Shown piece by piece: positions 7,612 to 40,312 of a stretch of DNA of 64,000 nucleotides. The stretch's first letter is position 1; every line of letters begins with the position of its first letter. The stretch covers positions 2,279,925 to 2,343,924 of the forward strand of contig NZ_CM002139.1 in NCBI RefSeq assembly GCF_000454545.1, written 5' to 3'. The position numbers were made by a program, and so were the translations under genes. Under the pieces are notes generated by a model that saw only the letters and a program-made list of their open reading frames with translations, searched no databases and was not told where the DNA came from. The stretch comes from Xanthomonas cassavae CFBP 4642 (lineage in GTDB: Bacteria; Pseudomonadota; Gammaproteobacteria; Xanthomonadales; Xanthomonadaceae).

Positions 7612-7680
7612 ACCCCGTCCAGGGCCACATGCTCGCTCTGATGACTGCATGGCATACCGTCGGCCCCAGTGGAGGTCCTA

Positions 7681-8829
7681 ATGCTTGATCGCATCGACAT
7701 CGAAGGTTTGAAGGGAGTCGGCAAGGTGGAGCTGCGGTTCGACGCAGCCTGCCGGGCGCGTGTGCTTTTTGGCGTCAATGGCGTTGGCAAAACGAAGTCT
7801 TTAGAAGCCATCTATTGCGTATTGCTTTTTACCAATGAGGAGTTCTTGCGAGTCAAGGGTGATCGGGGAATCAATCCAGACAAGTGCGTGCCCGCGTCCA
7901 ACGTCCTTATCGATGACTCGCGATATCTTATTGATGAGCCTTTGCAAAAGCTCGTGCAGGCAAGAGATGTTGCCTCACATGCTGTTCGTCATTCGCGTCC
8001 CTTGGTTTACATCGGTGCGGGTGGGCGATCGTCGATGGGAAGTCAGCCCACATCCATTGCAGCATTGGGAAATTTTGAGGAACGTAGGTCTCAGCATTTT
8101 GAGTTGCTGTTAGATAAGTGCAGAGAAGGCTCGTTGCGCTCTGCCGGCATGGATGCGGACATCCGCGTGTGGTTCATACAGCGTGCGCAGTCGGTCAACC
8201 CTTTTCAGGTTGAAAAGGACAACCTGCGCAACGAGATCGAGTCGGTATTGAAGCTGTTGCATCGCATCGATCAGCGTGTGGATGCCGAGCGCCTGCAGAT
8301 CGACGGCTCGCAGCGTGTTTACCTGAGTGTGGAGGGCCGCATGATTGAGCTGGGTGAACTCAGTTCGGGATTTGCCTCGGTAGTGAAGCTGTTTCAAGCC
8401 ATCGTCTCCGGGTACGCAGGCTTCAGTAACTCCAAGGATCTGCAGAACCTGCCAGGCGTGGTGCTGATCGACGAGATCGAAAGTCACCTCCATGTCGGTT
8501 GGCAGGTCAGCATCGTCAGACATTTGAAGGCGCTGTTCCCAAACACGCAGTTCTTCATTAGCACCCACTCGCCGCTGGTACTGACCCAGCTCGAGCAGGG
8601 AGAGGCCTATCTCCTGGAGCGCGACGCGGCAGACGGAGTCGTCAGGTCGTCTGTGATCGACTCGCCCAACATGAAGGCATTCGCGGATGTGCTTGAAGAG
8701 ACCTTTGGTGTCGATCTCAATGCACTCAAGCGCGAGGCGCTGGTCAGCGAAGACCAGTCCGCTACCAAACGTGCATTGCTGGACCTGGTCAAGCAGCGCC
8801 GCGATCGGCAGGGTGGGGAGCAAGCATGA
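7681..8829 (+). CDS. AAA/ABC-type ATPase (SMC/OLD-like) of an ATPase-PIN module
   Basis: 382 residues from ATG 7681, preceded by GGAGGT at 7671-7676, which decides this start over GTG 7669. Walker A is GVNGVGKTKS (about residues 31-40). An ABC-like signature is ELSSGFASVVKLFQAI (near 226), Walker B is VVLIDEIESHLH (near 260), and the switch histidine is in ISTHSPLVLTQ (near 294). This is the compact SMC-like ATPase seen in OLD, Septu PtuA and PARIS AriA defence proteins. No nuclease domain is fused; the C-terminal helix region after Walker B is short. The next gene, a PIN nuclease, overlaps by 4 bases (ATGA). Codons are visibly more A+T-rich than in carA or carB, which suggests transfer. A role in defence or as a toxin-antitoxin-like unit is inference. 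Confidence 0.8.
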   Translation: MLDRIDIEGLKGVGKVELRFDAACRARVLFGVNGVGKTKSLEAIYCVLLFTNEEFLRVKGDRGINPDKCVPASNVLIDDSRYLIDEPLQKLVQARDVASHAVRHSRPLVYIGAGGRSSMGSQPTSIAALGNFEERRSQHFELLLDKCREGSLRSAGMDADIRVWFIQRAQSVNPFQVEKDNLRNEIESVLKLLHRIDQRVDAERLQIDGSQRVYLSVEGRMIELGELSSGFASVVKLFQAIVSGYAGFSNSKDLQNLPGVVLIDEIESHLHVGWQVSIVRHLKALFPNTQFFISTHSPLVLTQLEQGEAYLLERDAADGVVRSSVIDSPNMKAFADVLEETFGVDLNALKREALVSEDQSATKRALLDLVKQRRDRQGGEQA

Positions 8830-9233
8830 CCCGTCTGGTACTGCTCGATGCCAACCTCTTGATCGGCGCGCTGGATGGGGAGGAGAGCAATGCTGCTCAC
8901 CAAGCGTCGCTGTCGACATTCGAGGCGCTGGTCGCCGATCCGGATGTCAAGATCGCGATCTCCCCGCTGATTCGATACGAAGTGTTGCGCGGTATGGACG
9001 AGGCGGATTTCGAGGCGGTGAACGCCATCCTCAACGACATGAAGGAGTTCGAGGTGCGGGGTCAAGAGGCCATACGTGCCGCGTAAGTCTTCCGGAAGGC
9101 TCGCCAGACCAATGTAAAGCTGGATAAGCGCAGGTTCGACGTGTTCCATTGCGTCTGCGCAGAAATCAATGATCTCGAAATCCTAAGTAAAGATGGGGAT
9201 ATCGCGAAGATTCAAGAACTCATGAAGGCCTGA
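8826..9233 (+). pseudogene. PIN-domain nuclease gene interrupted by one in-frame TAA
   Basis: The frame codes for 86 residues (TRLVLLDANLLIGALDGEE..., acidic residues D8 and E52 in IRYEVLRGM) and hits TAA at 9084-9086. The same frame then continues VFRKARQTNVKLDKRRF and [20 protein letters not shown] to TGA at 9231-9233. Read through, it is a normal-length 135-residue PIN protein whose remaining acidic residues (D105 and the D123/D125 pair of LSKDGD) lie after the stop. The truncated product should be inactive as a nuclease. A single substitution (for example CAA, GAA or AAA to TAA), recoding, or a sequencing error would explain it. It is coupled to the ATPase by a 4-base overlap and ends 8 bases before carB. 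Confidence 0.82.
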
Positions 9234-9241
9234 ATAAGACA

Positions 9242-12480
<3,239 letters not shown>

Positions 12481-13897: not shown

Positions 13898-15633
13898 CGG
13901 GCAGTCCACGGATTGTCCGGCGCCCGGCAGGCCAGGTCGGAAGCTGGCCCGATGCCATGTTGCCGCTGCTGCGCCGCCTCTACGCTGCGCGTGGGGTGAC
14001 CGACGCGCAAGGCGCGCAGCCGCGGCTGGGGCAGCTGTTGTCGCCGGAGCGGCTGCACAACAGCACCGTGGCTGCGAGCCTGCTGGCCGATGCGATCGCG
14101 CAGCAAGGTCGCATCCTGGTGGTGGGCGATTTCGATTGCGATGGCGCTACCGCCTGCGCCGTGGGTGTGCGTGGCCTGCGCATGCTTGGCGCGCTGGATG
14201 TGCATCACGCCGTGCCCAATCGCATGGTGCATGGCTATGGCCTGTCGCCGGCGTTGGTGGACGAGCTGGCCGTGTTGCAGCCGGATGTATTGGTCACCGT
14301 CGATCACGGCATCGCCTGCCATGCCGGCGTGGCTGCGGCCAAGGCGCGCGGCTGGACGGTGTTGGTCACCGACCATCACCTGCCGGGCGAGGTGCTGCCG
14401 CCGGCCGATGCGATCGTGGACCCGAACCTGGCCGTTGACGATTTCCCGAGCAAATGCCTGGCCGGGGTGGGCGTGATCTTCTACGTGCTGCTGGCCTTGC
14501 GTGGCGTGCTGCGCGCGCGGGGCGCGTTCGCCGACCGCACCGAACCGGACCTGTCGACGCTGCTGGATCTGGTGGCGGTGGGCACGGTGGCCGATCTGGT
14601 GCCGCTGGACACCAACAACCGTGCGCTGGTGTCGGCCGGCCTGCGGCGCCTGCGCGAGGGGCGCGGCTGCATCGGCCTGCGCGCCTTGATCGACGCCAGT
14701 GGCCGCGATGCGGCGCGGTTGAGCGCCAGCGATATCGGGTTCGCGCTCGGCCCACGCCTGAATGCGGCCGGCCGTCTCGAAGACATGGCGCTGGGCATCG
14801 AATTGTTGCTCTGCGAGGACTGGAACCGCGCACGCGAGATCGCCGCCGCCCTTGAAGAGATCAACGCCGAACGCCGTGCGGTCCAGCAGCTGATGACCGA
14901 CGACGCCGAGCAGGCGGTGGCGAAGGTGGTGCTGGATGCCGACGGCGCCTTGCCGATCGCCGCCTGCCTGTTCGACCCGGACTGGCACCCGGGCGTGATC
15001 GGCTTGGTGGCCTCCAAACTCAAGGACCGCCTGCATCGCCCGGTGATCGCGCTGGCCCCGGCCGAGCCGGGCAGCAGCCAGTTGCGCGGTTCGGCGCGCT
15101 CGATTCCGGGCCTGCATATTCGCGATGTGCTGGCAGCGGTGGATGCCCGGCATCCCGGCGTCATCCAGAAGTTCGGCGGCCATGCGATGGCGGCCGGGCT
15201 GAGCATTGATCGTGACGCGTTGCCGACCTTCGAGCAGGCGTTTGGATCGCAGGTACAGACGATGGTGGATGCTTCGCTGCTGCATGCCGAACTGCATAGC
15301 GATGGCGAACTGGCCGCGCACGAACTCGACCACGTGCATGCCGAAGCGCTGCGCGTGGCCGGCCCATGGGGGCAGGGTTTTCCCGAGCCGCTGTTCGATG
15401 GGCAGTTCGAGGTGCTGCAATACCGCGTGCTCAAGGAGCGCCACCTCAAGCTGACCCTGCGCTGCGCCGGCCGCGCCGAGCCGCTCAATGCCATCCACTT
15501 CAACGGCTGGCACGGCAGCGAGCCGGCGCGCATGGTGCGGCTGGCCTATCGGCTGGTCAGTGATGACTATCGCGGCGGCACGGCAGTGCAGTTGATCGTC
15601 GAGCATTGCGAGCCGGCGATAGGCATGGGTTGA
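13894..15633 (+). CDS. recJ: Single-stranded-DNA-specific exonuclease RecJ
   Basis: 579 residues from ATG 13894 overlapping the rpfE stop; the frame is open upstream but inside rpfE. DHH-family motifs are GDFDCDGATACA (motif I), VTVDHGIACHAG (II), LVTDHHLPGE (DHH, III) and SDIGFALGPRLNAAGRLEDM. The DHHA1 domain is marked by HPGVIGLVASKLKDRL and KFGGHAMAAGLSID, followed by the OB fold. It is a 5'-3' exonuclease of RecFOR recombination and mismatch repair. Confidence 0.95.
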   Translation: MTGSPRIVRRPAGQVGSWPDAMLPLLRRLYAARGVTDAQGAQPRLGQLLSPERLHNSTVAASLLADAIAQQGRILVVGDFDCDGATACAVGVRGLRMLGALDVHHAVPNRMVHGYGLSPALVDELAVLQPDVLVTVDHGIACHAGVAAAKARGWTVLVTDHHLPGEVLPPADAIVDPNLAVDDFPSKCLAGVGVIFYVLLALRGVLRARGAFADRTEPDLSTLLDLVAVGTVADLVPLDTNNRALVSAGLRRLREGRGCIGLRALIDASGRDAARLSASDIGFALGPRLNAAGRLEDMALGIELLLCEDWNRAREIAAALEEINAERRAVQQLMTDDAEQAVAKVVLDADGALPIAACLFDPDWHPGVIGLVASKLKDRLHRPVIALAPAEPGSSQLRGSARSIPGLHIRDVLAAVDARHPGVIQKFGGHAMAAGLSIDRDALPTFEQAFGSQVQTMVDASLLHAELHSDGELAAHELDHVHAEALRVAGPWGQGFPEPLFDGQFEVLQYRVLKERHLKLTLRCAGRAEPLNAIHFNGWHGSEPARMVRLAYRLVSDDYRGGTAVQLIVEHCEPAIGMG

Positions 15634-18700: not shown

Positions 18701-19615
18701 ATGGAATCGACCGGGTCGCGCCCGCCAATCGCCCGGGACGGGGCCGGACGTGCCGCTATGCGCTGGGCCGTCGTGATCTGGTCGCTGGTGTTCTACCTGA
18801 GTGCGCTGGGCAACGTCTGGACCGCCTGGCTTGCCGCGCGCCGCGACGGCCAGCCGGTCGTGCTGTGGCAGTTGCTGAGCTGGGAGCTGAGCAGCGCCAC
18901 CGCCGCGCTGTTGCTGCTGCCAGGCGTGTTGTGGCTGTGCGCACGCTGGCCGCTGCATGCCGATGCCTGGCCGCGACGTGTGCCGCTGTACCTGGCCGCG
19001 GCCCTGGGGTGGTGGCTGGCGCACGTCGCCGCCATGGTGCTGGTGCGCAAGCTGGTCTACGCACTGGCCGGCGCGCACTACGATTTTGGCGGCTGGCTGC
19101 AGTGGGTGTACGAGCTATCCAAGGACCTGCGCACCTTTGCGCTACTGGTGGCGGTGCAGCACGCGCTGGGCTGGTATGCGCGGCGGCGTCAGGGCGAGGC
19201 GCATCTGCTCGCTGCGCCGGACGAGGGGCCGCCCGTGGAGCCGCTGGATCGCCCGGAACGCTTTCTGGTGCGCAAGCTCGGCCGCGATTTTCTGGTGGCC
19301 ACCGCCGACATCGAATGGATCCAGGCCTCCGGCAACTACGTCAACCTACGCGTCCGCGGTCACGACTATCCCCTGCGCAGCACCATGGCGGCGATCGAGG
19401 CCAGGCTGGATGCGGCTGTCTTCGTACGGATCCACCGCAGCTATCTGGTCAATCTGGGCCAGGTGCAGGCGATCGAACTGGTCGATTCCGGCGACGCGCG
19501 CGTGCACCTGCGCGACGCCACGGTGCTGCCCTGCAGTCGCAGCCATCTGGCCGGCCTGCGGGCGCGTGCCGGGCAGGTGGCCGGCACGCCCAGGCCGGAC
19601 CCGGTGACGGTCTGA
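18701..19615 (+). CDS. rpfD: RpfD-type LytTR-domain membrane regulator
   Basis: About 304 residues from ATG 18701 (ATG 18668 is possible). Four hydrophobic segments come first (WAVVIWSLVFYLSALGNVW, TAALLLLPGVLWLCARW, LYLAAALGWWLAHVAAMVLV, LRTFALLVAVQHALGWYA). A C-terminal LytTR DNA-binding domain follows: RFLVRKLGRDFLVATADIEW, SGNYVNLRVRGHDYPLRSTM, VRIHRSYLVNL and LPCSRSHLAGLR. The position upstream of prfB-lysS and the domain type match RpfD of the Xanthomonas rpf cluster, whose targets are unclear. It is divergent from the broken acyltransferase gene. Confidence 0.83.
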   Translation: MESTGSRPPIARDGAGRAAMRWAVVIWSLVFYLSALGNVWTAWLAARRDGQPVVLWQLLSWELSSATAALLLLPGVLWLCARWPLHADAWPRRVPLYLAAALGWWLAHVAAMVLVRKLVYALAGAHYDFGGWLQWVYELSKDLRTFALLVAVQHALGWYARRRQGEAHLLAAPDEGPPVEPLDRPERFLVRKLGRDFLVATADIEWIQASGNYVNLRVRGHDYPLRSTMAAIEARLDAAVFVRIHRSYLVNLGQVQAIELVDSGDARVHLRDATVLPCSRSHLAGLRARAGQVAGTPRPDPVTV

Positions 19616-19781
19616 AGCAGGCGCCCGCGAGTGGCGCGGTGTTGCGCGCTGGATGAGGGGTGGATGTCGCTGCTTGGCCAATGGGATGGTGCCGGGCCAC
19701 GGCGCGCGTGCCGGCCACTGCTGCGTTCCGCGCATGCGGCCCGCTTGCTAAACTAGCCAGCTTGTTTGCCGGAAATCCGTC

Positions 19782-20907
19782 ATGATCGAAACCAATCCGA
19801 TCCGCCAGCGCATCACCGATCTCAACGATCGCGTGCTCTCGCTCAGGGGGTATCTTTGACTACGACGCCAAGAAAGAGCGTCTAGAGGAAGTCAGCCGGG
19901 AGCTCGAGAGCCCGGACGTGTGGAACGACGCCGAGCGTGCCCAGGCCCTGGGGCGTGAACGGTCCATGCTCGAGAAAACCGTCATCGGCATCGCCGATGT
20001 GCTGGCCGGCCTGGCCGATGCCGGCGATCTGCTGGAGCTGGCCGACAGCGAGCAGGACGAAGACACCGCAGTGGCGGTGATCGCCGATCTGGACAAGTAC
20101 CAGGCGCACGTAGAAAAGCTGGAATTCCAGCGCATGTTCTCCGGGCAGATGGACGGCGCCAATGCGTTCGTCGACATCCAGGCCGGCGCCGGTGGTACCG
20201 AGGCGCAGGACTGGGCCGAAATCCTGTTGCGCATGTACCTGCGCTGGGCCGAGTCGCGTGGGTGGAAAACCGAGCTGATGGAAGTCTCCGGCGGCGAAGT
20301 CGCGGGCATCAAGTCGGCCACGGTGCGCATCGAGGGCGAGTACGCCTATGGCTGGTTGAAGACCGAGATCGGCGTGCACCGGCTGGTGCGCAAGTCGCCG
20401 TTCGACTCGGACAACCGCCGGCATACCAGCTTCACCTCGGTATTCGTGTCGCCGGAAGTGGACGACAACATCGAGATCGACATCAACCCGGCGGACCTGC
20501 GCACCGACGTGTATCGCTCCTCCGGCGCCGGTGGTCAGCACGTCAACAAGACCGAATCGGCGGTGCGCATCACGCACATCCCGACCAACACGGTGGTGGC
20601 CTGCCAGACCGGCCGCAGCCAGCACCAGAACCGCGACAACGCGATGAAGATGCTGGCCGCCAAGTTGTACGAGCTGGAAGTGCAGAAGCGCAATGTCGAA
20701 CGCGACGCGCTGGAAGCGACCAAGTCCGACATCGGCTGGGGCAGCCAGATCCGCAACTACGTGCTCGACCAGAGCCGCATCAAGGATCTGCGCACCGGCA
20801 TCGAGCGCAGCGACACCCAGAAAGTGCTCGACGGCGACCTGGACGACTTCGTCGAGGCCAGCCTGAAGGCCGGCCTGGCGGCAGGCTCCAAACGCCTGGA
20901 CGCCTGA
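19782..20907 (+). CDS. prfB: Peptide chain release factor 2, programmed +1 frameshift
   Basis: Start ATG 19782 gives 25 codons ([21 protein letters not shown]...RGYL) ending at an in-frame TGA at 19857-19859. The +1 frame then continues [22 protein letters not shown] to the stop at 20907, so the CDS is join(19782..19856,19858..20907), 374 residues. The peptidyl-tRNA hydrolysis motif is [22 protein letters not shown]2 reads UGA and UAA. The frameshift lets RF2 control its own level: when RF2 is scarce, the slow TGA favours slipping. Confidence 0.96.
19844..19860 (+). promoter_or_regulatory. prfB recoding site
   Basis: The sequence CAGGGGGTATCTTTGAC holds the internal Shine-Dalgarno-like AGGGGG, the slippery CTT codon and the TGA followed by C (a poor termination context). 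This is the classical arrangement for autoregulated +1 shifting on RF2 mRNA. Confidence 0.93.
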
Positions 20908-21113
20908 CCGCCGCGCCAGGCGGCCGTCGCTGAGACGGCATCCTGGCGCACCGCTGCGGTGCCTGTATCGCAGCGGCGGCAATGCACGCAGCCCCGGGCG
21001 ATCCGGGCACAGCGTGCGTTCGTCACACCGCCGACGTAAAAGAGAGTGCCGGCGCTGCCGGTTGTTCACTTCCCACCGGGCACCGCCCGACCTATTGCAG
21101 ACCGATTCCCGCC

Positions 21114-22631
<1,518 letters not shown>

Positions 22632-22639
22632 TCTTTTTT

Positions 22640-22663
22640 GTGCCGTCGGCGTGCCGACGGCAC
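22640..22663. terminator. GC-rich hairpin after lysS
   Basis: GTGCCGTCGGC (22640-22650) pairs perfectly with GCCGACGGCAC (22653-22663), 8 bases after the lysS stop. A run of six T precedes rather than follows it, so it is not a textbook intrinsic terminator; it may still end lysS transcription. Confidence 0.4.
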
Positions 22664-22771
22664 AGATACTGCATATGCTAGAGCGGAGCCCCGAATGGCG
22701 TATCGTCGGGGGAGTCGGCACAGCGGCTGGCGTCATCGCTTTTCCGTTCTCGGGATAGAGGAGCAACGGCT

Positions 22772-23908
22772 ATGCAGGATGTTTTGGGTAATCTTGCCGG
22801 CGTATCGTCGGCGGATCCATCGGGAAGCTGGTCGGAAAAGGCGGATCTGGGATTGAACATCGTCATTGTCGATGACCAGATGTCTGCGCGGACGATGCTG
22901 CGCCACGTCATCGAAGACATCGCACCGGAGTTGAAAGTCTACGATTTCGGTGACCCGCTCGACGCGCTGGCGTGGTGCGAGGCCGGACGGGTGGATCTGT
23001 TGCTGCTCGACTACCGCATGCCCGGCATGGATGGGCTGGAGTTCGCCCGGCGTCTGCGCCGGCTGCCCAGCCATCGCGATATTCCGATCATCCTGATCAC
23101 CATCGTCGGCGACGAGCCGATCCGCCAGGCGGCGCTGGAAGCGGGCGTGATCGATTTCCTGGTCAAGCCGATCCGCCCGCGCGAACTGCGTGCGCGCTGC
23201 GCCAATTTGCTGCAGCTTCGTCAGCAGAGCGAAAGCGTCAAGCAACGCGCACTGTCGCTGGAGCAGCGTCTGCTGGCCAGCATGAACGAGGTCGAGGAGC
23301 GCGAACGCGAGACGCTGTCACGGCTGGCGCGCGCCATCGAGTACCGCGACTCGGGCACCAGCGCCTTCCTGGAGCGCATGTCGCACGTGGCCGGCCTGAT
23401 CGCCGAGCAGCTCGGCTTGTCGGAAGAAGAAGTGCGCATCATCGAGATGGCCGCACCGCTGCACGACATGGGCAAGATCGCCATTCCCGATGCGGTGCTG
23501 CTCAAGCCGGGCAAGCTCACCGACGACGAGATGAGCATCATGAAGCGGCATCCGCGGATCGGCTACGAGCTGCTCAGCGGCAGCCAGAACCGCTTCATCC
23601 AGGTCGGCGCCCTGATCGCGCTGCGTCACCACGAGCGCTACGACGGCACCGGCTATCCGGATGGACTGGTGGGCGAGGCGATTCCGCTGGAAGCGCGCAT
23701 CGTGGCGGTGGCCGACGTCTTCGACGCACTGTTGTCGCCGCGCCCGTACAAGGAGGCCTGGACCATGGACGCCGCGCTGGCTTATCTCTACGCACAACGC
23801 GGTCGCCTGTTCGACCCACGCTGTGTGGATGCGCTGCTGCGCGGCCGCGCGCAGCTGGACCAGATCTGCGGCGAATTCTCGACCGCATCGGCACGACCCG
23901 GGGTGTAA
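22772..23908 (+). CDS. rpfG: RpfG, DSF-pathway response regulator with HD-GYP phosphodiesterase
   Basis: 378 residues. The receiver domain has the phospho-acceptor D80 in VDLLLLDYRMPGMDG and FLVKPIRPRELR after it. The HD-GYP domain has H231-D232 in HDMGKIAIPD, RHHERYDGTGYPDGL (GYP at 294-296) and VADVFDALLSPRPYKEAW. It degrades cyclic di-GMP when phosphorylated by RpfC, turning on extracellular enzyme and dispersal genes. From memory the sequence is nearly the same as the campestris protein. The stop is 4 bases before rpfC, with no rpfH in between. Confidence 0.96.
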   Translation: MQDVLGNLAGVSSADPSGSWSEKADLGLNIVIVDDQMSARTMLRHVIEDIAPELKVYDFGDPLDALAWCEAGRVDLLLLDYRMPGMDGLEFARRLRRLPSHRDIPIILITIVGDEPIRQAALEAGVIDFLVKPIRPRELRARCANLLQLRQQSESVKQRALSLEQRLLASMNEVEERERETLSRLARAIEYRDSGTSAFLERMSHVAGLIAEQLGLSEEEVRIIEMAAPLHDMGKIAIPDAVLLKPGKLTDDEMSIMKRHPRIGYELLSGSQNRFIQVGALIALRHHERYDGTGYPDGLVGEAIPLEARIVAVADVFDALLSPRPYKEAWTMDAALAYLYAQRGRLFDPRCVDALLRGRAQLDQICGEFSTASARPGV

Positions 23909-23912
23909 GGCT

Positions 23913-26093
23913 ATGAATCCGTTCGGAAGGATCCGGCAGCGGTTGATGAATCGACCTGACAGCGAACATGGCCAGGCGATCGTCCGCATCGTTCTGATCA
24001 GCCTGATCCTGTCGTATGTCCTCGTGCCGAGTGTCCGGCATAGTTTGCCGCTGCACCAGCACACCGGTGTCTTGGTGATCGTGCTGACAGGTCTCGGGCT
24101 TGGCCTGGCGTTGTTTGGATGGCTGCTGTGGCGACCCGACCGCTCGGATGCGCGTCGCATCCTGGGCATGCTGGCCGATTACGGGTTGATGGCGGCCGGC
24201 ATGATCCAGATGGGCGAGCCGCTGGCCTGGGTCTATGTCGTGGTGATGTGGGTCACCGTCGGTAACGGCCTGCGCTACGGCAACCGCTATCTGTATCTTG
24301 CGGTGGCAATGGCGGTGGTGAGCTTTTCCACGACGCTGTCGATGACCGAATACTGGCAACGCAACCAGCGCCTTGGGGTCGGGCTTGCGGTTGGTCTGGC
24401 CGCCGTTCCGCTGTATTTCTCCAGTCTGCTGCGGCAGTTGACCCGTGCAACCGCCGAGGCGCGCCGCGCCAGCGAGGCCAAGAGCCGCTTTCTGGCCAAC
24501 ATGAGTCACGAGTTTCGGACACCGTTGAACGGTCTGTCCGGCATGACCGAGGTATTGGCAACGACGCAGCTGGACGATGAGCAGCGCGAATGCCTGAAAA
24601 CCATTCAAGCCTCCACACGCAGTCTGCTGGCGCTGGTGGAGGAGGTGCTGGACATCTCGGCCATCGAAGCTGGCAAGCTCTGCATCAATGCGTCCGACTT
24701 TGCTGTGCATGACACCTTGCAGGCAATCGGTCTGATCCTGGAGCCGCAGGCCAAGGCCAAGGGCTTGCGTTATCAGGCAACTATCGCCGCAGATGTCCCT
24801 CCCCGTGTGCACGGGGATGCGGGACATCTGCAGCAGATCCTACTCAATCTGGTCGGCAATGCGGTCAAGTTCACCGACCACGGCAGTGTCCAGTTGAAGG
24901 TGGCGGCCACCGAGGCCAGTGGCCGCGCTGGTGTGCTGCTCCGTTTTGAAGTGCTCGATACCGGGATCGGTGTGCCGGTCGATATGCGTCCGCGTTTGTT
25001 CGAGGCGTTCGAACAGGCGGACACCGGACTGGCGCGCCGCTTCGAAGGCAGCGGCCTCGGAACGACGATCGCCAGGGGGCTGGTGCAGTCGATGGGTGGC
25101 GCGATCGGGTTTGAGGAAAATCCCGAAGGCGGCAGCTTGTTCTGGTTTGAACTGCCGTTCGGCCTGGCGACCGCCAAGCCTGCAGCAACTCCGCCGCCTG
25201 TGCTGCATGAGACGGAGTCCACCACGATACCGGGCAACGTGATTGCGTTTGCCGATCCGTTCCTACGTCACCGTGCCCGCGTGCGTAGCATGCAGATCCT
25301 GGTGGCAGACGACCATCTGGCAAATCGCCTCGTGCTGCAGCGGCTGCTGCAAAAAGCAGGGCATCGCGTCACCTGTGTTGATGGCGGCGAAGCCGTCCTG
25401 GATGCGTTGGCCGAAGCCGACTACGACGCGGCCATCGTCGACCTGCATATGCCTGGTGTCAGCGGTCTGGACATGCTGAAGCAGCTGAGGGTCATGCAGG
25501 CCGGTGGTAAGCCGGGAACCCCGATCGTGGTATTGAGCGCTGATGTCACCCCCGAGTCGATTCGCAGCTGCGAACAAGCGGGCGCCTATGCATTCCTGGC
25601 CAAGCCGGTGGCGGCGATCAAGTTGCTGGATACGCTGGCCGAAATCGCGGTCAACCAGAAGCTGCGTCAGACCGATCTGAGCATTGGTACCCGTAGCGCG
25701 GCGCCAAGCGGCGCAGTCCTCGATCCTGCCGTGCTCGACGAGCTGGCGGAACTGGGGATGGGAAATGAGTTCGAACGCGAGTTCATTCAACAATGTCTCA
25801 GCGATGCTGCAGCATGTGTTGTCCAGCTCGGTAAGGCGGCGGCGGACGGAGACTGGGCACGTCTACGCGAGCATGCTCACGCGGTCAAAGGTGTTTCCAG
25901 CAATCTCGGGCTGGTGATGTTGGCCGAACAGGGTGGTGAGTTAATGCGCCTGCCGGAAGCGCAGCTGCGAGCAGAATGGAGTCAAAGACTGGAGCAGCTG
26001 AAGAATGGTTTGAAGCTTGGGCGCGAGGCGCTCGCCCAGCGTGCTCAAAATAAGTCCGACGGAGGCGTCAGCGGGAATGGCGACCGTGGGTAA
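23913..26093 (+). CDS. rpfC: RpfC, hybrid sensor kinase for DSF (diverged sensor region)
   Basis: 726 residues from ATG 23913, the usual RpfC length. About five membrane spans fall within residues 22-173. The kinase core follows: H199 in MSHEFRTPLNG, N box NLVGNAVKFTDHG, G boxes DTGIGVP and GSGLGTTIARG. The receiver has D510 in AAIVDLHMPGVSG, and the C-terminal HPt domain has H656 in EHAHAVKGVSSNLG. It senses DSF, passes phosphate to RpfG and restrains RpfF. Compared with the campestris RpfC as I remember it, the membrane part (MNPFGRIRQRLMNRPDSEHG, then RIVLISLILSYVLVP) is very different while the kinase core is moderately changed. Base composition is more A+T-rich than in rpfG. Confidence 0.94.
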   Translation: MNPFGRIRQRLMNRPDSEHGQAIVRIVLISLILSYVLVPSVRHSLPLHQHTGVLVIVLTGLGLGLALFGWLLWRPDRSDARRILGMLADYGLMAAGMIQMGEPLAWVYVVVMWVTVGNGLRYGNRYLYLAVAMAVVSFSTTLSMTEYWQRNQRLGVGLAVGLAAVPLYFSSLLRQLTRATAEARRASEAKSRFLANMSHEFRTPLNGLSGMTEVLATTQLDDEQRECLKTIQASTRSLLALVEEVLDISAIEAGKLCINASDFAVHDTLQAIGLILEPQAKAKGLRYQATIAADVPPRVHGDAGHLQQILLNLVGNAVKFTDHGSVQLKVAATEASGRAGVLLRFEVLDTGIGVPVDMRPRLFEAFEQADTGLARRFEGSGLGTTIARGLVQSMGGAIGFEENPEGGSLFWFELPFGLATAKPAATPPPVLHETESTTIPGNVIAFADPFLRHRARVRSMQILVADDHLANRLVLQRLLQKAGHRVTCVDGGEAVLDALAEADYDAAIVDLHMPGVSGLDMLKQLRVMQAGGKPGTPIVVLSADVTPESIRSCEQAGAYAFLAKPVAAIKLLDTLAEIAVNQKLRQTDLSIGTRSAAPSGAVLDPAVLDELAELGMGNEFEREFIQQCLSDAAACVVQLGKAAADGDWARLREHAHAVKGVSSNLGLVMLAEQGGELMRLPEAQLRAEWSQRLEQLKNGLKLGREALAQRAQNKSDGGVSGNGDRG

Positions 26094-26146
26094 GCGAAGC
26101 CCGGCAATAGGCCGGGCCTGATTCCCCAGTATTGGATCCACCAAAA

Positions 26147-27016
26147 TCAGGCGACACCCGCGCCTGCGCGGCGGTTCTGTGCTTTGACCAAACGGTCCAT
26201 CGTGCGCAGTGATTTCTCACTGAGTGCCAGGGCCGTGTCTACCCAGACTTCGGTGATGCGCAGCAATTCCTCGTAAGGCACCGCCTGCGCGAGGTTGCGT
26301 GCGGCGTTCATCGCCAGATAGGAGTGGGAGATGCGCTTTTGCTGGCGAATCAGCGTTTCTGTGGCAACCACGCCTTGGCCCTTCGGTACGAGTACGTCCA
26401 CGATCCCCATCGCATGCATTTCTTCGCTGCTGTAAATGCGTCCATCGAGAATGATTTTTTCCGCCAGATGGGGCGAAACGCGGCGGCACAGGAAGGAATA
26501 CGCGCCCATGCCCGGAAACAGGCCGAACAGGACCTCGGGCAGTCCCATGCCGATGCCTTCCTCGGCCACGATGGTATGGCAGGCCAGGGCCATCTCCAGC
26601 CCGCCTCCCAATGCATCGCCCTGCAGCAGCGCAATGCTGCGCACGTCCCCACCGAAGCCGGTATGCAGGTGATGGACGCCTTCCACGCAGCGAATCGCAT
26701 ACCGCATGAGTTGCTCGCGATTCTGTTCGCGGATCAAGCGTGCGAACAGGTCCAGATCGCCACCGAGATTGAAGGCGTCCGCGTCGGAGGCGAGTACGAA
26801 ATGGCGCAGTTCCCCGCTGCGTCGCTCATGCGGGGCGCGGGTGATGGAGCCCATGACATCCCAGATGTCTTCCAGTAACTCAGGACTGCAGCAGGGACGT
26901 ATGCCAAAAGGCGCATCGGCATGCATGAACAACCAGTGGGTGCCGTCAGCAGCCGAAGAATCGACCCGAATGGTGGAGTGGGGACGACCGAGGGAAATCT
27001 TTTCAATCGTGTTCAT
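26147..27016 (-). CDS. rpfF: RpfF, DSF synthase (diverged allele)
   Basis: 289 residues, the exact family length. It is a crotonase-fold enzyme that makes the cis-2-unsaturated fatty acid signal from 3-hydroxyacyl-ACP by dehydration and thioester cleavage. The two catalytic glutamates are in place: E141 in GDALGGGLEMALACH and E161 in MGLPEVLFGLFPGMGAYSFL. The C-terminus EKSLRTMDRLVKAQNRRAG is family-like. The N-terminal third (MNTIEKISLGRPHSTIRVDS...) and many later positions differ strongly from the campestris enzyme as I recall it. It converges on rpfC (53 bases between stops) and lies downstream of rpfB on the same strand. Its ATG is at 27016. Confidence 0.93.
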   Translation of the reverse strand: MNTIEKISLGRPHSTIRVDSSAADGTHWLFMHADAPFGIRPCCSPELLEDIWDVMGSITRAPHERRSGELRHFVLASDADAFNLGGDLDLFARLIREQNREQLMRYAIRCVEGVHHLHTGFGGDVRSIALLQGDALGGGLEMALACHTIVAEEGIGMGLPEVLFGLFPGMGAYSFLCRRVSPHLAEKIILDGRIYSSEEMHAMGIVDVLVPKGQGVVATETLIRQQKRISHSYLAMNAARNLAQAVPYEELLRITEVWVDTALALSEKSLRTMDRLVKAQNRRAGAGVA

Positions 27017-27490
27017 GGGCGTGATCCTGGAAAAGCCCGCAGTGGGAGAGTGAACGCCGGCGGGCGCGCGCGATCCACTCCGAATCGATGCTACACCGGC
27101 ACTATCTCCATGAACGCAGAGGCCTTCCTTTCTATCCGGTGAGCCCTATGACCTGAATCTTTCAGTGAATTTCCGCAAGCAAAAGTAGTTTATTGTGAAT
27201 TGCACATTCTTGAAATTATGTGTTCCGTGATTCTGCGTTCCGGTTCCACCGAAGTACTCCCTGGGGGACTGTCATGAGCTTTAAAAACGCATGGTATTTC
27301 CATGCATCGGAACGGCGCAGATAACCAAGTGCAAATCGGCCCTTATTCCGGCGCGCGCGTCGTCGCACGCTGGCCGTCCGAAACGAACGTTCCGTCCGAA
27401 GCGTGCAAAAACAAACGCCCGCAAGCCTGGCGGCAGTACGGGCATCGGATGACAGCCGGGTGGCTGTCGATCTGCGCTGGCGTAGGTGGA
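27017..27490. other. Long A+T-rich rpfB-rpfF spacer
   Basis: 474 bases with no family-like gene, with a noticeably A+T-rich stretch at about 27130-27320 that probably holds an rpfF promoter on the minus strand. A 16-codon plus-strand frame at 27274-27324 starts MSFKNAWYFHAS and follows CTGGGGGAC; it is too short to call. A small stem GACAGCC/GGCTGTC (27451-27457 with 27462-27468) sits just after the rpfB stop as a possible terminator. Confidence 0.5.
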
Positions 27491-29173
27491 TTAGCCCTTG
27501 GGCGTATCCCGCAATTCGCGGCGCAGGATCTTGCCGACGTTGGTTTTCGGCAGTTCCTTGCGGAATTCGATCACTCGCGGCTGCTTGTAGCCGGTCAGGT
27601 TGGCGCGGCAGTGCGCCTTGACGGCGTCGGCGGTCAGGGCAGGGTCCTTCTTCACGATGACGGCTTTGACGATCTCGCCGGACTTCTCGTCCGGTACACC
27701 GACGGCGGCCACTTCCAGCACGCCGGGCATCTCGGCAATCACGTCCTCGATCTCGTTCGGATACACGTTGAAGCCGGACACCAGGATCATGTCCTTCTTG
27801 CGGTCGACGATGTAGACGAAGCCCTGTTCGTCCATGCGTGCGATGTCGCCGGTGTGCAGCCAGCCTTCGGCATCCATCACCTTGGCGGTCTCGTCGGCCT
27901 TCTTCCAGTAGCCCTTCATCACCTGCGGGCCCTTGATGCACAACTCGCCGATCTCGCCGATCGGCAGGACGGCGCCGGCGTCGTCCTTGATGCAGGCATC
28001 GGTGGAGGGAATCGGCAGGCCGATCGAGCCGTTGTAGTCCTTCAGGTCCATCGGGTTGATGCAGGCGGCCGGCGAGGTTTCGGTCAGGCCGTAGGCTTCG
28101 ACCAGGGTGCGCCCGGTGACCTTCTTCCAGCGCTCGGCCACCGAACGCTGCACGGCCATGCCGCCGCCCAGGGTCATCTTGAGCGAGGAGAAGTCGATCT
28201 GGTCGAAGCCGGGCGCGTTGAGCAGGCCGTTGAACAGCGTATTGACGCCGGTGAACGCGGTGAAGCGTGTCTTCTTCAGTTCCTTGATGAAGCCGGGCAT
28301 GTCGCGCGGATTGCTGATCAGATGATTGCAGCCGCCGATCTTCATGAAGACCAGACCGTTGGCCGTCAATGCGAAGATGTGGTATAGCGGCAGCGCCGTG
28401 ATCACCACCTCCTTGCCTTCTTCCAGCTCGCCGGTGCCGGCCAGCCATTGGTGCGCCTGCTGCATGTTGGCGACCAGGTTGCGGTGGGTCAGCATCGCGC
28501 CCTTGGCCACGCCGGTGGTGCCGCCGGTGTATTGCAGGAAGGCGATGTCGTCGGATTCCACCTGTACCGTGGGCAGCGTGTGCTTGCTTCCCAGCGCCAA
28601 CGCCTCGCCGAAGCGGATCGCGCCGCTGATGCGATAGTCGGGCACCAACTTCTTGATGTACTTGACCACGAAGTTGATCAGCGTTCCCTTGGGGAAACCG
28701 AGCATGTCGCCCAGGCCGGTGGTGATCACCTGCTTGACCGGCGTATCGGCGATGACCTGCTGCACGGTGGTGCCGAAGTTATCGATGACCACCAGCACGC
28801 TGGCGCCGGAATCGATCAATTGGTGTTTCAGTTCGCGCGGGGTGTACAGCGGGTTGACGTTGACCACCGCCAGCCCGGCACGCAGCACGCCGAAGGTGGC
28901 GATCGGATACTGCAGGCAGTTGGGCATCATCAGCGCAACGCGGTCGCCCTTCTTCAATCGCAGCTCGCCCAGCAGGTAGGCGGCGAATTGTTCGACCAGT
29001 TGGTCGGCTTGCCGATAGGTGATGGTCTTGCCGAAGCTGTGATATGCAGGACGATCGGCAAAGCGCGCGACGGAGGTGGCGAATACCTCGGCCACGGTGC
29101 GGAACTGCTCCAGATCGATCTCGGCAGCTACGCCGGCCGGATAACTTTGCAACCAAGGACGTGCCTGATTCAT
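27491..29173 (-). CDS. rpfB: RpfB, long-chain fatty acyl-CoA ligase (FadD type)
   Basis: 560 residues from ATG at 29173, preceded on its strand by GGAGGGGGG-like purines. AMP-binding motifs are YTGGTTGVAKGAMLTHRN, VEAYGLTETSP, GWLHTGDIARMDEQGFVYIVDRKKD and the C-terminal lysine in PKTNVGKILRREL. It activates free fatty acids to acyl-CoA; in xanthomonads RpfB turns over DSF-family signals late in growth. rpfB normally precedes rpfF in one transcript; here a 474-base spacer separates them. Confidence 0.94.
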   Translation of the reverse strand: MNQARPWLQSYPAGVAAEIDLEQFRTVAEVFATSVARFADRPAYHSFGKTITYRQADQLVEQFAAYLLGELRLKKGDRVALMMPNCLQYPIATFGVLRAGLAVVNVNPLYTPRELKHQLIDSGASVLVVIDNFGTTVQQVIADTPVKQVITTGLGDMLGFPKGTLINFVVKYIKKLVPDYRISGAIRFGEALALGSKHTLPTVQVESDDIAFLQYTGGTTGVAKGAMLTHRNLVANMQQAHQWLAGTGELEEGKEVVITALPLYHIFALTANGLVFMKIGGCNHLISNPRDMPGFIKELKKTRFTAFTGVNTLFNGLLNAPGFDQIDFSSLKMTLGGGMAVQRSVAERWKKVTGRTLVEAYGLTETSPAACINPMDLKDYNGSIGLPIPSTDACIKDDAGAVLPIGEIGELCIKGPQVMKGYWKKADETAKVMDAEGWLHTGDIARMDEQGFVYIVDRKKDMILVSGFNVYPNEIEDVIAEMPGVLEVAAVGVPDEKSGEIVKAVIVKKDPALTADAVKAHCRANLTGYKQPRVIEFRKELPKTNVGKILRRELRDTPKG

Positions 29174-29270
29174 CTGCCCCCCTCCAGGGTGTTCTCGACG
29201 CGCCGCAGTGTGTTCCACGGCGCTACAACAGCTGGCAGCATACCGTCATGAATGGAAAAGGCGAAGCGTG

Positions 29271-29986: not shown

Positions 29987-32755
<2,769 letters not shown>

Positions 32756-37499: not shown

Positions 37500-37533
37500 G
37501 GGGTTGTACGCCGGAACCCCAGAAATTTCCGTC
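37500..37533 (+). repeat. Left terminal inverted repeat
   Basis: Begins GGGGTTGTACGCCGGAACCC and ends TTTCCGTC. It differs from the right end at one base (G versus A in the GCCGGA/GCCAGA segment). Confidence 0.93.
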
Positions 37534-37635
37534 ACCTCCATATCCCCAGTCTGGCCACGAGCGCATTCAAGTCGGGAGTCGGTAGGCATCGTCAAAACAG
37601 CCAGGAATTTTCGCAGGTTGCTGCCGATCCTCGAC

Positions 37636-37640
37636 TTCGC
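37636..37640 (+). promoter_or_regulatory. Weak PIP-box-like half site upstream of the effector
   Basis: TTCGC occurs at 37610-37614 and 37636-37640, separated by 21 bases, not the 15 of the plant-inducible promoter box bound by HrpX. TTCGG at 37684 followed after 15 bases by TTTCC is another poor match. HrpX control is plausible for an effector but not shown by this sequence. Confidence 0.2.
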
Positions 37641-37820
37641 ATGAATCCCTGCTGGCCCTCGGATCGCGGTACTGCTGCATTGCTTCGGTTTAACGTCCAC
37701 ATCTTTCCAAATCGGTTCATCGCCAGCGGCGTGCAGGCGAAAATAAACGGGCAGGAGTGGGCGACCCCCGTTATTTTTAAGTTGGCCACTTTAAGTTTCC
37801 TTGATAAAAAGTGAGCAGAT

Positions 37821-38924
37821 ATGGGACTTTGCTTTTCCAAATCCTCCGAATCGACTCAACATGCGGCACTTGCTCCAGGCGCCGCATATGACAGGGGAGA
37901 GTCGCCGCGAGCCTCCACTGTTTCCAGCTTTCAAAGCGTCACGCCGCCGCAATCGCCAGAGCTATTAGCCCTGAGGGTCTCCCTGGGGACGCGTCCGGAC
38001 CGGTTGCGAAGGGGCGGAGATGAATCTCTGGAGCAGCATCAGATCCAGCAGGCCGCTTACCACATGGGAGCATATGTCGTCGGTGACGAAGTCACCAGTC
38101 CGACAAGACTCGCGACAGCCGGACAAACTGTTAACGATGTTCGCCTGATGCTCAAGCATGGCAGAGGAAACGTTAAAGCGGACGACATTCCCTCCGAAGG
38201 CCATAACGGCATCGGATCGTCAGTTGCAAAATCGGCAGCGGACGCCCACAGCAAGCTTGCCGTGGGCGTCGCAATGGGGGCAGCGGCCTGCGATCAGTCT
38301 GCTCCCCTTTGCGCCATCCTCCATGCTCCCCATATGGCGGCCAACGAGAGGAGTGTGACTTCTGGTGCTTCCGTACCAATGAAAGAGATAACCGACGACG
38401 GGGATGAGATGCCAGTCAAAGCGGGGCACACCTGGAACGAACTGAGGCGCGGAAGCCGCGACCCGAGGTCAACGGTGGTCATGGATGCCTGGGCCAACGG
38501 TCCGGCTGTTCGATTGAAAGACAGCGCATGGAGCGGAGAGCCAGCCGAGGAAGGTCGTTGGTCGATGGAAAAAAGCAGCGCCGAATTTCTGAAAAACCGT
38601 CTTGAAAGGTTAATTCCGTTAGTGCATCCGGACGAAGATGTAAACACTGCCAAACGCCTTGAATATTACCAAAAAAACCCCACAGCGTGGGAAAAATATG
38701 CAGAACCACAAGTGATCTCATCCGCTTTTGCCGATGAGGTACGCAACGCACTGGCCGATGTTCCTGAAAGCCAACAGAGGGATATCGCATCCCGGATGAT
38801 TCAAGAGACCTACGGAATCAATCCTCAATCGCACGCGCACCAAGACGCAGTGGAATCAGTTCTGGAGGCAGTCAACCAACTGGACTCGCTGCCCCGGCCT
38901 CCTGTCGTGCCGCCTGGATACTGA
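37821..38924 (+). CDS. xopE: XopE/HopX (AvrPphE) family type III effector
   Basis: 367 residues. MGLCFSKSS at the start is an N-myristoylation (G2) and possible S-acylation (C4) signal, as in XopE proteins that go to the host plasma membrane. The Ser/Pro/Thr-rich first 50 residues suit type III export. The papain/transglutaminase-like triad is visible as C157 (GAAACDQSAP), H203 (KAGHTWNELRRG) and D222 (TVVMDAWANGPAV). The codon use is poorer in G+C than in neighbours. It lies in the cassette 288 bases inside the left repeat. Which XopE subgroup it is cannot be decided without alignment. Confidence 0.82.
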   Translation: MGLCFSKSSESTQHAALAPGAAYDRGESPRASTVSSFQSVTPPQSPELLALRVSLGTRPDRLRRGGDESLEQHQIQQAAYHMGAYVVGDEVTSPTRLATAGQTVNDVRLMLKHGRGNVKADDIPSEGHNGIGSSVAKSAADAHSKLAVGVAMGAAACDQSAPLCAILHAPHMAANERSVTSGASVPMKEITDDGDEMPVKAGHTWNELRRGSRDPRSTVVMDAWANGPAVRLKDSAWSGEPAEEGRWSMEKSSAEFLKNRLERLIPLVHPDEDVNTAKRLEYYQKNPTAWEKYAEPQVISSAFADEVRNALADVPESQQRDIASRMIQETYGINPQSHAHQDAVESVLEAVNQLDSLPRPPVVPPGY

Positions 38925-39012
38925 ACAGCAATGCGCCTCATCGAAACGTTTTGATCTGATCCCCTGGACACCCTCGATAGGGCTGAAGCCAAAGCCCCCA
39001 AAATGCCGTCCT

Positions 39013-39333
39013 TCATTTCCACCCGCCGTCGCATTCGTCCCAGTACAAGCCGCTGGACTGGTTCTTGATGCTTATGTCGTCGACCACGCAGTTGCGCTGA
39101 TCGGCAGAGTAACAGATCTCGTGTAATAACCTGTCGCGTTGCTCTTTCAGATCGGCAGCATTGGTGTATGGAATCACCAATCGGTATTCCGCATCGTTGA
39201 GCTTGGAGCCCTCGTAGGAGAGGGCGACCAAGTCGTCGATGTTTTCGCGCCCCCGCTTCTTCCCGCGGGTGAAATTGCTGCCGTTCTCGATATGGGGCCA
39301 GAAAATCACGGTCACGGAGAGCTGTACAGGCAT
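39013..39333 (-). CDS. Unidentified protein fragment in the cassette
   Basis: 106 residues starting MPVQLSVTVIFWPHIENGSN and ending SSGLYWDECDGGWK. No family recognised. There is no ribosome binding site before the ATG, and its 5' end lies only a few bases from where TnpA homology begins on the other strand, so it is probably the 3' part of a longer gene cut at the junction. The high A+T content compared with the chromosome supports foreign origin. Confidence 0.4.
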   Translation of the reverse strand: MPVQLSVTVIFWPHIENGSNFTRGKKRGRENIDDLVALSYEGSKLNDAEYRLVIPYTNAADLKEQRDRLLHEICYSADQRNCVVDDISIKNQSSGLYWDECDGGWK

Positions 39334-39337
39334 ATAG

Positions 39338-40312
39338 TACTTCGGGCGCGGGAAAGGCGTGGTCGCCTACACGCTGCTGTGCAACCACGTGCCGCTCAAC
39401 GGCTACCTGATCGGCACGCACGATTACCAGGCCCATCACGTATTCGACATCTGGTATCAGAACACGTCGGATGTCGTACCAACCGCGATCACCGGCGACA
39501 TGCACAGCGTCAACAAGGCCAGTTTCGCCATCCTGCACTGGTTCGGTCCGCGCTTCGAGCCACGCTTCGCCAGCCTCGACGACCAGTTGAAGGAACTGTA
39601 CTGCGCCGACGACCTTGCACAATACGAGAACTGCCTGATCCGACCGATCGGGAAAATCGACCGCGATCTCATCATCGACGAAAAGCCAAACATCGACCGG
39701 ATCGTCGCCACGCTCGGGCTGAAGGAGATGACGCAGGGCACGCTGATCCGCAAGCTGTGCACCTATACCGCGCAAAACCCGACGCGGCGCGCGATATTCG
39801 AGTTCGACAAGCTCGTCCGCAGCATCTACACGCTGCGCTACCTGCGCGACCCTCAACTGGAGCGCAACGTGCACCGCTCCCAGAACCGCATCGGGTCTTA
39901 CCACCAGCTACGCTCAACCGTTGCCCAGGTCGGTGGCAAGAAGGAACTGACCGGACGCACCGACATCGAGATCGAAATCAGCAACCAGTGTGCGCGCCTG
40001 ATCGCCAACGCGGTCATTTACTACAACTCGGCCATCCTGTCGCGGCTGCTGACGAAGTATGAGGCGAGCGGCAACGCCAACGCGCTGGCGCTCATCACCC
40101 AGATGTCACCGGCAGCCTGGCGGCGCATCCTGCTGAACGAGCATTACACCTTCCAGAGCGACGGCAAGATACTCGACCTAGACGCGCTCGTGGCCGAACT
40201 GGAGCTGGGACGACGGAAATTTCTGGGGTTCTGGCGTACAACCCCTGATTACGGTTGCGCGCCTAGCCAGGCTTCCAGTGCCGGCGCTGGTAGGGGCCGC
40301 GAGAACAGATAG
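39338..40312 (+). pseudogene. tnpA: Tn3-family transposase TnpA, C-terminal fragment
   Basis: The open frame after TAG at 39335 reads YFGRGKGVVAYTLLCNHVPL, then VITGDMHSVNKASFAILHWFG, a Tn3 DDE-domain segment with its second Asp. Toward the end come RYLRDPQLERNVHRSQNRIG and LIANAVIYYNSAILSRL. About 290 residues of a protein that normally has about 990 are left, so it is inactive alone. The frame has no stop before the right inverted repeat (GRRKFLGFWRTTP is encoded by the repeat) and runs on to 40312 outside the cassette. Only GTG 39359 could start it. Confidence 0.88.
40212..40245 (-). repeat. Right terminal inverted repeat
   Basis: Reads GACGGAAATTTCTGGGGTTC and ends GTACAACCCC on the plus strand, the reverse complement of the left end except for one base. 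The stop codon of the adjacent minus-strand gene lies 4 bases beyond it. Confidence 0.93.

Follow-up and report, generated by a model that had tools for sequence, protein, structure and literature searches.

A probable exchange of a matched rpfC-rpfF cassette in Xanthomonas cassavae, and the likely origin of extra input domains as antennae of displaced receptors

Why should two adjacent genes of a signalling locus differ from those of close relatives when the genes on both sides do not? The question is raised by the rpf locus of Xanthomonas cassavae CFBP 4642, which we analysed in a window of 64,000 nucleotides from a source genome of 5.27 Mb over 7 contigs. Along this window prfB, lysS, rpfG and rpfC lie on the plus strand, followed by rpfF, rpfB and acnA on the minus strand; RpfF is the predicted synthase, and RpfC the sensor kinase, of a diffusible signal factor (DSF). 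DSF signals, which are fatty acids, are believed to cross-activate widely; they govern virulence, biofilm formation and dispersal in many bacteria associated with plants and in some associated with humans. A sequence-only reading of the locus had proposed that RpfC and RpfF are a diverged, possibly swapped pair beside an ordinary RpfG, and that observation is confirmed here, its interpretation being partly supported. The explanation that we favour, with a probability of about 0.85 for the joint reading, is that the window carries a matched rpfC-rpfF cassette of another lineage than that of its nearest relatives, the two genes having been imported together, and that the extra input domains seen in related genomes are the antennae of displaced receptors.

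The comparison rests on 80 named loci retrieved with RpfG as query; no record among them is titled X. campestris, and "campestris-like" denotes here class D with rpfH. In the Xanthomonas loci near the window, the products of prfB, lysS, rpfG, rpfB and acnA are 90-100% identical where present. RpfC and RpfF form four classes, whose identities to the window in the named loci are 87-95 and 89-96% (class A), 67 and 63-65% (class B), 52 and 49% (class C), and 57-60 and 54-57% (class D). Among 35 Xanthomonas genomes, RpfF belongs to class A in 7, B in 5, C in 2 and D in 21 (the match in G027 spans 176 residues only); the class of RpfC is that of RpfF in 35/35, and RpfG is 95-100% identical to the window in all of them. 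Against the class C and D genomes, identity is 52-60% for RpfC and 50-57% for RpfF, so that the sequence-only reading was right in describing a sensor unlike the campestris-like one and a divergent synthase that nevertheless keeps E141 and E161. Three X. arboricola-titled records (L009, L010 and L014, separate species clusters in a one-per-species collection) are 94-100% identical to the window in five flanking proteins, and carry classes A, B and C. The RpfC-RpfF pair is likely to be an exchangeable cassette.

The gene trees lead to the same reading. In the RpfF tree (67 of 81 rows, 13 being omitted by choice, mostly Pseudoxanthomonas, and L040 as broken), a deep split (100/100) separates classes D and C and the S. 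maltophilia rpf-1 types from classes A and B, other Xanthomonas, the Stenotrophomonas rpf-2 types and Pseudoxanthomonas/Lysobacter. Class A stands with 18 Stenotrophomonas-type rows (97/90) and classes D and C with the rpf-1 rows (100/100); the RpfF and the RpfC input domain of the window both fall in the rpf-2 clade (100/100 and 96/93 for the input domain). The parallel with the rpf-1/rpf-2 alleles of Stenotrophomonas, drawn from the sequence at the outset, therefore holds, with A and B on the rpf-2 side and C and D on the rpf-1 side. A single Xanthomonas clade is rejected by the approximately unbiased (AU) test for RpfF (260.9 log-likelihood units worse, p-AU 1.7e-6) and for the kinase part of RpfC (46.5 units worse, p-AU 1.3e-5, in a test confined to classes A, B and D; 32 of 34 rows in the kinase-core tree, L014 and L021 being without the anchor motif). 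LysS, RpfG and RpfB together unite the 21 Xanthomonas rows that RpfF separates. Separate gene trees had been set as the test of replacement by recombination, and those of RpfC and RpfF do not match that of LysS, RpfG and RpfB. Synonymous divergence (dS) jumps in the same place: between the window and L018 it is 0.20 for lysS, 0.50 for rpfG, 1.31 for rpfC, 1.67 for rpfF and 0.23 for rpfB, and against classes B, C and D it is 0.18-0.38 for lysS and 1.1-2.1 for rpfC and rpfF (one pair saturated). In the X. phaseoli record L040, around 13900-14800, rpfF is split across frames and the adjoining rpfC frame is longer than the others (833 aa).

On a DNA tree of the flanks (prfB, lysS and acnA, 24 loci, of which L012, L015, L024 and L026 have under half of the columns filled), the class labels take 9 changes; shuffled labels take 9.4 on average, and 95 of 200 shuffles are as low. 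If swapping of the pair is so frequent that its class is no better a guide to phylogeny than shuffled labels are, findings made in X. campestris cannot be transferred to its neighbours by species name. The window groups on this tree with L015, L018 and L024 (99/98), and because all three are of class D, the window lineage has likely changed from class D to class A.

The extent of the import is likely to be wider than the class-specific block, which runs from 23909 to about 27400. In classes A, B and D the divergence sets in within the first bases past the stop codon of rpfG; it ends at the conserved 3' end of rpfB. Window-L018 identity is 92-98% in the blocks of 19500-22500; over 22500-23750 the window rpfG is 96-98% identical to L009, and after about 27750 the identity to L018 is back at 95-97%, with one block at 88%. 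The rpfG of the window is arboricola-like (dS 0.18 to L009 versus 0.50 to L018), which lysS and rpfB are not. Informative sites turn from 3 arboricola-like and 6 floridensis-like in the block 22300-22499 to 17 and 1 in the block 22500-22699. The import into the window lineage would thus extend from 21.4-22.5 kb to about 27.6 kb. The change at the rpfG-rpfC junction, which had been taken for a breakpoint, is indeed where the classes diverge, but the imported tract likely starts earlier. RpfG is ordinary in its conservation, but since it likely lies within the imported tract it is no bystander. In class C (L014 and L021) rpfG itself is different at its 3' end, where it shares 4 bases with rpfC, and the crossover was therefore likely inside rpfG. 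L012 is a chimera whose first 20 aligned codons are of class A (54/57 bases, versus 33/57 to the class B L029) and the rest of class B. Farther on, acnA is arboricola-like again at 30080-30680 (30 of 39 informative sites) and 31880-32755 (30 of 37), so that recombination extends beyond the cassette.

At the right-hand boundary, a tblastn search of the rpfF-rpfB gaps of eight loci (E <=0.01, best six rows per gap) found no relic of rpfF as a scar, the matches among those rows being a weak one to rpfC in L014 and short ones to rpfG in L018; a hairpin at 27385-27460 is no stronger than those of shuffled sequences (z -0.70), which gives no strong terminator there. The gaps of L014, L021 (952 and 972 bp) and L016 (1089 bp) contain extended tracts of 51-53% G+C in which no gene is clear. 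No full rpfB lies beside rpfF in L012 (14685-20918), L015 (15282-20617) and L024 (15291-17405), where several unrelated frames are found: an island has been inserted or rearranged next to the cassette.

The swap was not one clean block. When the folded domains of RpfC are compared across classes, identity is lowest in the membrane part (40% to D, 56% to B; the value for D is the mean over the input domain, residues 23-168) and highest in HisKA and REC (83 and 78% to D), and the linkers are as variable as the membrane part. The class A input domain joins those of Stenotrophomonas rpf-2 (96/93), a grouping of A with B being rejected (p 5.6e-5), as it is for RpfF (p 8e-8). In the kinase core, class A joins class B (support 92) and a grouping with rpf-2 is rejected (p 0.0065), which rules out one history for the whole of RpfC. 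The cluster of the window is therefore a mosaic relative, and not a copy, of the Stenotrophomonas rpf-2 cluster. The input domain and the synthase have a common history in which the kinase core that separates them has no part, a moderate hint that selection for fit between sensor and synthase, and not linkage alone, has kept them together.

A second set of observations concerns the input domains that accompany RpfC elsewhere. In the window only 4 bases separate rpfG from rpfC, rpfH is absent, and G000 has a single input-domain match; the 14 named class D loci have 602-638 bp in this place, holding rpfH or its remains. In the 35 genomes, RpfH or remains of it occur in 20 of the 21 of class D and in none of the 14 others. 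The input-domain tree, for which 59 of the 91 domain rows were chosen and the frameshifted upstream pieces of L022, L023 and L028 omitted, separates the rpf-1 and rpf-2 types at 100/100. The 11 RpfH rows fall with the rpf-2 type, as neighbours of class B and Xanthomonas group 1 (95/87), though the RpfC downstream of them is rpf-1; the first half of the ten-helix RpfC of 7 S. maltophilia-type loci stands with the Stenotrophomonas rpf-2 RpfC (99/96), and in L043 and L072 the extra domain is on the rpf-1 side and their own RpfC is rpf-2. The extra domain is of the type opposite to that of the adjacent RpfC in 20/20 tree rows. In the Stenotrophomonas-like genus g29, which we infer to be Stenotrophomonas, 79 of 91 genomes gave a match, with a single domain in 56 (55 rpf-2, 1 rpf-1) and a tandem in 23, all of opposite types: 21 have rpf-2 then rpf-1 (the second domain of G243 being frameshifted), and 2 have the reverse order within one long frame (G255 and G257). 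A family sample of 159 genomes, 114 with a match, gave adjacent tandems in 4, opposite in all four, three of them belonging to the 23 of g29 and the fourth (G008) to Xanthomonas. The tests reject, for each of the three groups, an origin by duplication of the domain that the receptor itself has (p 3.7e-6, 4.9e-18 and 6.5e-45), as well as one clade of RpfH with the S. maltophilia-type first domain (p 1.3e-4); the extra domains that many genomes carry therefore have at least three origins. The opposite-type pattern suggests where RpfH and the ten-helix RpfC are likely to have come from: the extra domains are probably what remains of displaced receptors, and are subject to purifying selection, RpfH being likely the antenna of a sensor displaced by an older swap. 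L043, which is titled Bacillus subtilis SK7B5, has an rpf region that resembles those of Stenotrophomonas and shows 79-89% identity to the flanking proteins of the window; the record is likely mislabelled or contaminated. In G132 C1 (genus g38), two RpfC-like input domains lie far apart, one nearer each type.

The model that we propose combines these two sets of observations. Recombination between homologous sequences on the conserved sides, rpfG and rpfB, would bring rpfC and rpfF in together, the DNA of another strain replacing the resident pair. A crossover behind the resident membrane domain would leave this domain upstream, either separate, as rpfH, or fused to the newcomer, and it would be kept because it still binds a signal or tunes the response. 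The input domain and the synthase would travel together since a sensor has to suit the signal and to bind its partner synthase. As with RpfC-2 in S. maltophilia, the class A RpfC would hold RpfF in check until an outside DSF-family signal is bound and would then signal through RpfG. The RpfC-2 of S. maltophilia is said to repress RpfF-2 until outside DSF arrives, and rpf-2 strains are reported to make DSF in pure culture only when it is supplied (PMC5928129). A further and more doubtful step would be to regard the classes as exchangeable DSF "dialects" of the Xanthomonadaceae, with matched swaps of sensor domain and synthase across species and genera, two-antenna receptors being bilingual and RpfH a retained old antenna. 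If this were true, a ten-helix RpfC, or an RpfC with RpfH, would still hear the dialect that was given up.

The genes of the window bear on what such a swap could change. Its RpfC, which starts MNPFGRIRQRLMNRPDSEHG, has within a single protein HisKA, HATPase_c, REC and Hpt domains, all above the Pfam cut-offs, and RPDSEHGQ at residues 14-21 fits the motif R-x-D-S-E-H-x-Q. Its input domain, a homologue of that of X. campestris, would have five membrane helices. In the RpfC sensor region of X. campestris, R15, D17, S18, E19 and Q22 (its own numbering) are required for DSF sensing (PMC5391125). The RpfF of the window aligns with the solved RpfF 3m6m. Of the catalytic residues and the listed pocket positions (136-142, 258 and 276), L136, E141, E161 and W258 are invariant (52 rows, six groups compared), and all the listed residues are the same across the six groups save position 142. 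This residue, next to E141 (window 26591-26593), is M in classes A and B and in Stenotrophomonas rpf-2, A in class D and rpf-1, and V in class C, and is a candidate for substrate preference. An altered signal length or specificity, as suggested by the sequence-only reading, might follow from the swap. Six positions of RpfF (27, 81, 134, 165, 189 and 209) and six of RpfC are type-diagnostic (at least 95% on each side). The coordinates are collected in Table 1.

Table 1. Features of the rpf locus and boundaries of the probably exchanged region, in window coordinates
Feature	Position	Strand	Remarks
lysS	21114..22631	+	conserved left flank; used as control
Left end of imported tract, approximate	22430..22770		from site counts
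rpfG	22772..23908	+	HD-GYP response regulator (Pfam); kept in all classes, arboricola-like in the window
Left class boundary	23909..23912		directly after the rpfG stop codon
rpfC, class A	23913..26093	+	hybrid sensor kinase: HisKA, HATPase, REC, Hpt (Pfam)
RpfC N-terminal sensor region and membrane input domain, residues 1-169	23913..24419	+	rpf-2 type
rpfF, class A	26147..27016	-	intact frame, crotonase family (Pfam), predicted DSF synthase; convergent with rpfC
rpfF-rpfB intergenic stretch	27017..27490		474 bp; class-specific to about 27400, then conserved rpfB 3' end
rpfB	27491..29176	-	fatty acyl-CoA ligase, beyond the class-specific block; floridensis-like from about 27700

Several points weigh against the reading of an imported, matched cassette. 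Class A and Stenotrophomonas rpf-2 RpfF form no clade in the quick tree, where such a clade is not rejected either (p 0.45); the rpf-1/rpf-2 split is weaker in the kinase core, where the support of 92 for A with B is all there is; and the module tests used quick trees in which the groups were named after the trees had been seen. It is likely that rpfG is part of the import, whose left end is blurred: a single-changepoint fit puts the turn at 21338-21374, versus about 22500 by site counts, because the sites are mixed over 21374-22500. The A+T richness claimed for the block is real (61.4% G+C versus 65.0% elsewhere) but weak and ordinary, 12.1% of 305 windows of the same length being as low, and we have dropped it as proof of import; G+C falls below that of the cassette, to 53-60%, at 7501-9500 and 37501-39500. 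A different signal is not implied by the listed catalytic residues, which are the same across classes, and an rpf-2-like control in the window would be carried over from the S. maltophilia papers. Finally, RpfH is broken in 3 of 20 class D genomes and gone in 1 of 21, and rpfH deletion in X. campestris altered only 4 genes (PMC3744752), so that a retained function of RpfH is doubtful.

These last facts are also those that speak for RpfH as a functionless scar of the swap in neutral decay, a view that falls only somewhat short of even odds. To them may be added the altered N-terminal stretch of the RpfH of L022, which reads through, and a ratio of nonsynonymous to synonymous change (omega) three times that of the neighbouring RpfC domain. 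However, the omega of RpfH, 0.226 (0.165-0.295) in 11 intact rows from the 14 class D loci, is far under 1, 17 of 20 RpfH have an open frame across the matched region, and the 11 rows compared retain R-x-D-S-E-H-x-Q. The S. maltophilia-type first domain (7 loci) has an omega of 0.131 (0.090-0.183), and the working domains 0.070 and 0.061; these values are biased toward constraint since frameshifted rows were excluded.

An ancestor of the family with two antennae or two cassettes, followed by differential loss, is improbable. In the family sample, at least seven genera (g1, g3, g4, g28, g29, g38 and g45) do contain both types, and two-domain forms are known from two genera. But such an ancestor agrees poorly with the placement of RpfH beside class B and group 1 and of the S. 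maltophilia-type domain beside the rpf-2 RpfC of that genus, with the rejected common clade of both extra domains and with the two genomes of reverse domain order; the class differences among very close relatives require exchange regardless. Still less credible is the origin of RpfH and of the ten-helix RpfC by tandem duplication of the receptor's own input domain, although RpfH has been described as similar to the RpfC input domain (PMC4504480, PMC3744752) and Huedo 2015 speaks of a "repetitive region" (PMC4517397): besides the rejected own-domain clades, the first domain of L051 shares 75% identity with the RpfC of S. maltophilia L046, which is of rpf-2 type, and 38% with the second domain of L051 itself, and none of the 23 tandems is a same-type pair. 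Vertical descent with fast divergence of rpfC and rpfF in the window lineage can be dismissed almost entirely, being refuted by the AU tests unless the models grossly mislead, and opposed by the jump of synonymous divergence against classes B, C and D, from 0.2-0.4 to at least 1.1, and by the three classes among three X. arboricola-titled records.

How does the exchange of matched cassettes compare with known systems? The exchange of rpf-1 and rpf-2 and the resemblance of the ten-helix RpfC to RpfH have already been published (PMC4517397, PMC7283896), as has the patchy presence of rpfH (PMC3071791, PMC3838355, PMC3826837, PMC2883993). Within a literature search that left supplements and most subscription papers outside, we found no published statement on the opposite receptor type of RpfH or of the first RpfC-1 domain, nor on four swapped Xanthomonas classes, and no paper on DSF pherotypes; the excerpts of PMC7160680, PMC9513982, PMC7432306 and PMC4504480 added nothing on class exchange. 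Among the closest systems is rpf-1/rpf-2 of S. maltophilia (PMC4517397, PMC5928129, PMC7283896), with the same locus, the same genes, a fixed rpfF-rpfC pairing and a proposed horizontal exchange; in their excerpts these papers do not mention an rpf-2 type for the first half of the ten-helix RpfC-1. Xanthomonas, which places A and B on the rpf-2 side and C and D on the rpf-1 side, differs in having four classes at one site, scattered against the flank tree. In X. citri (Xac), Lu et al. 2008 likewise described, in one strain, a distinct RpfF and RpfC without rpfH or a gap between rpfG and rpfC, and suggested lateral substitution (PMC2585010); the lack of rpfH has been put down to transposition elements (PMC2883993). 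The rpfGHC arrangement of X. campestris, with an RpfH whose "role [is] enigmatic" (PMC3744752), is that of class D, found in 21 of the 35 genomes. The window differs from it by the lack of rpfH, and RpfH is placed here in the opposite receptor lineage.

Beyond DSF, the likeness is to the pherotypes of agr and ComQXPA, in which linked maker and receptor genes are replaced together and are polymorphic among close relatives. What the rpf cassettes share with them is the co-replacement of maker and receptor; DSF signals differ in their wide presumed cross-activation, and specificity groups in the style of agr and ComQXPA would be putative here.

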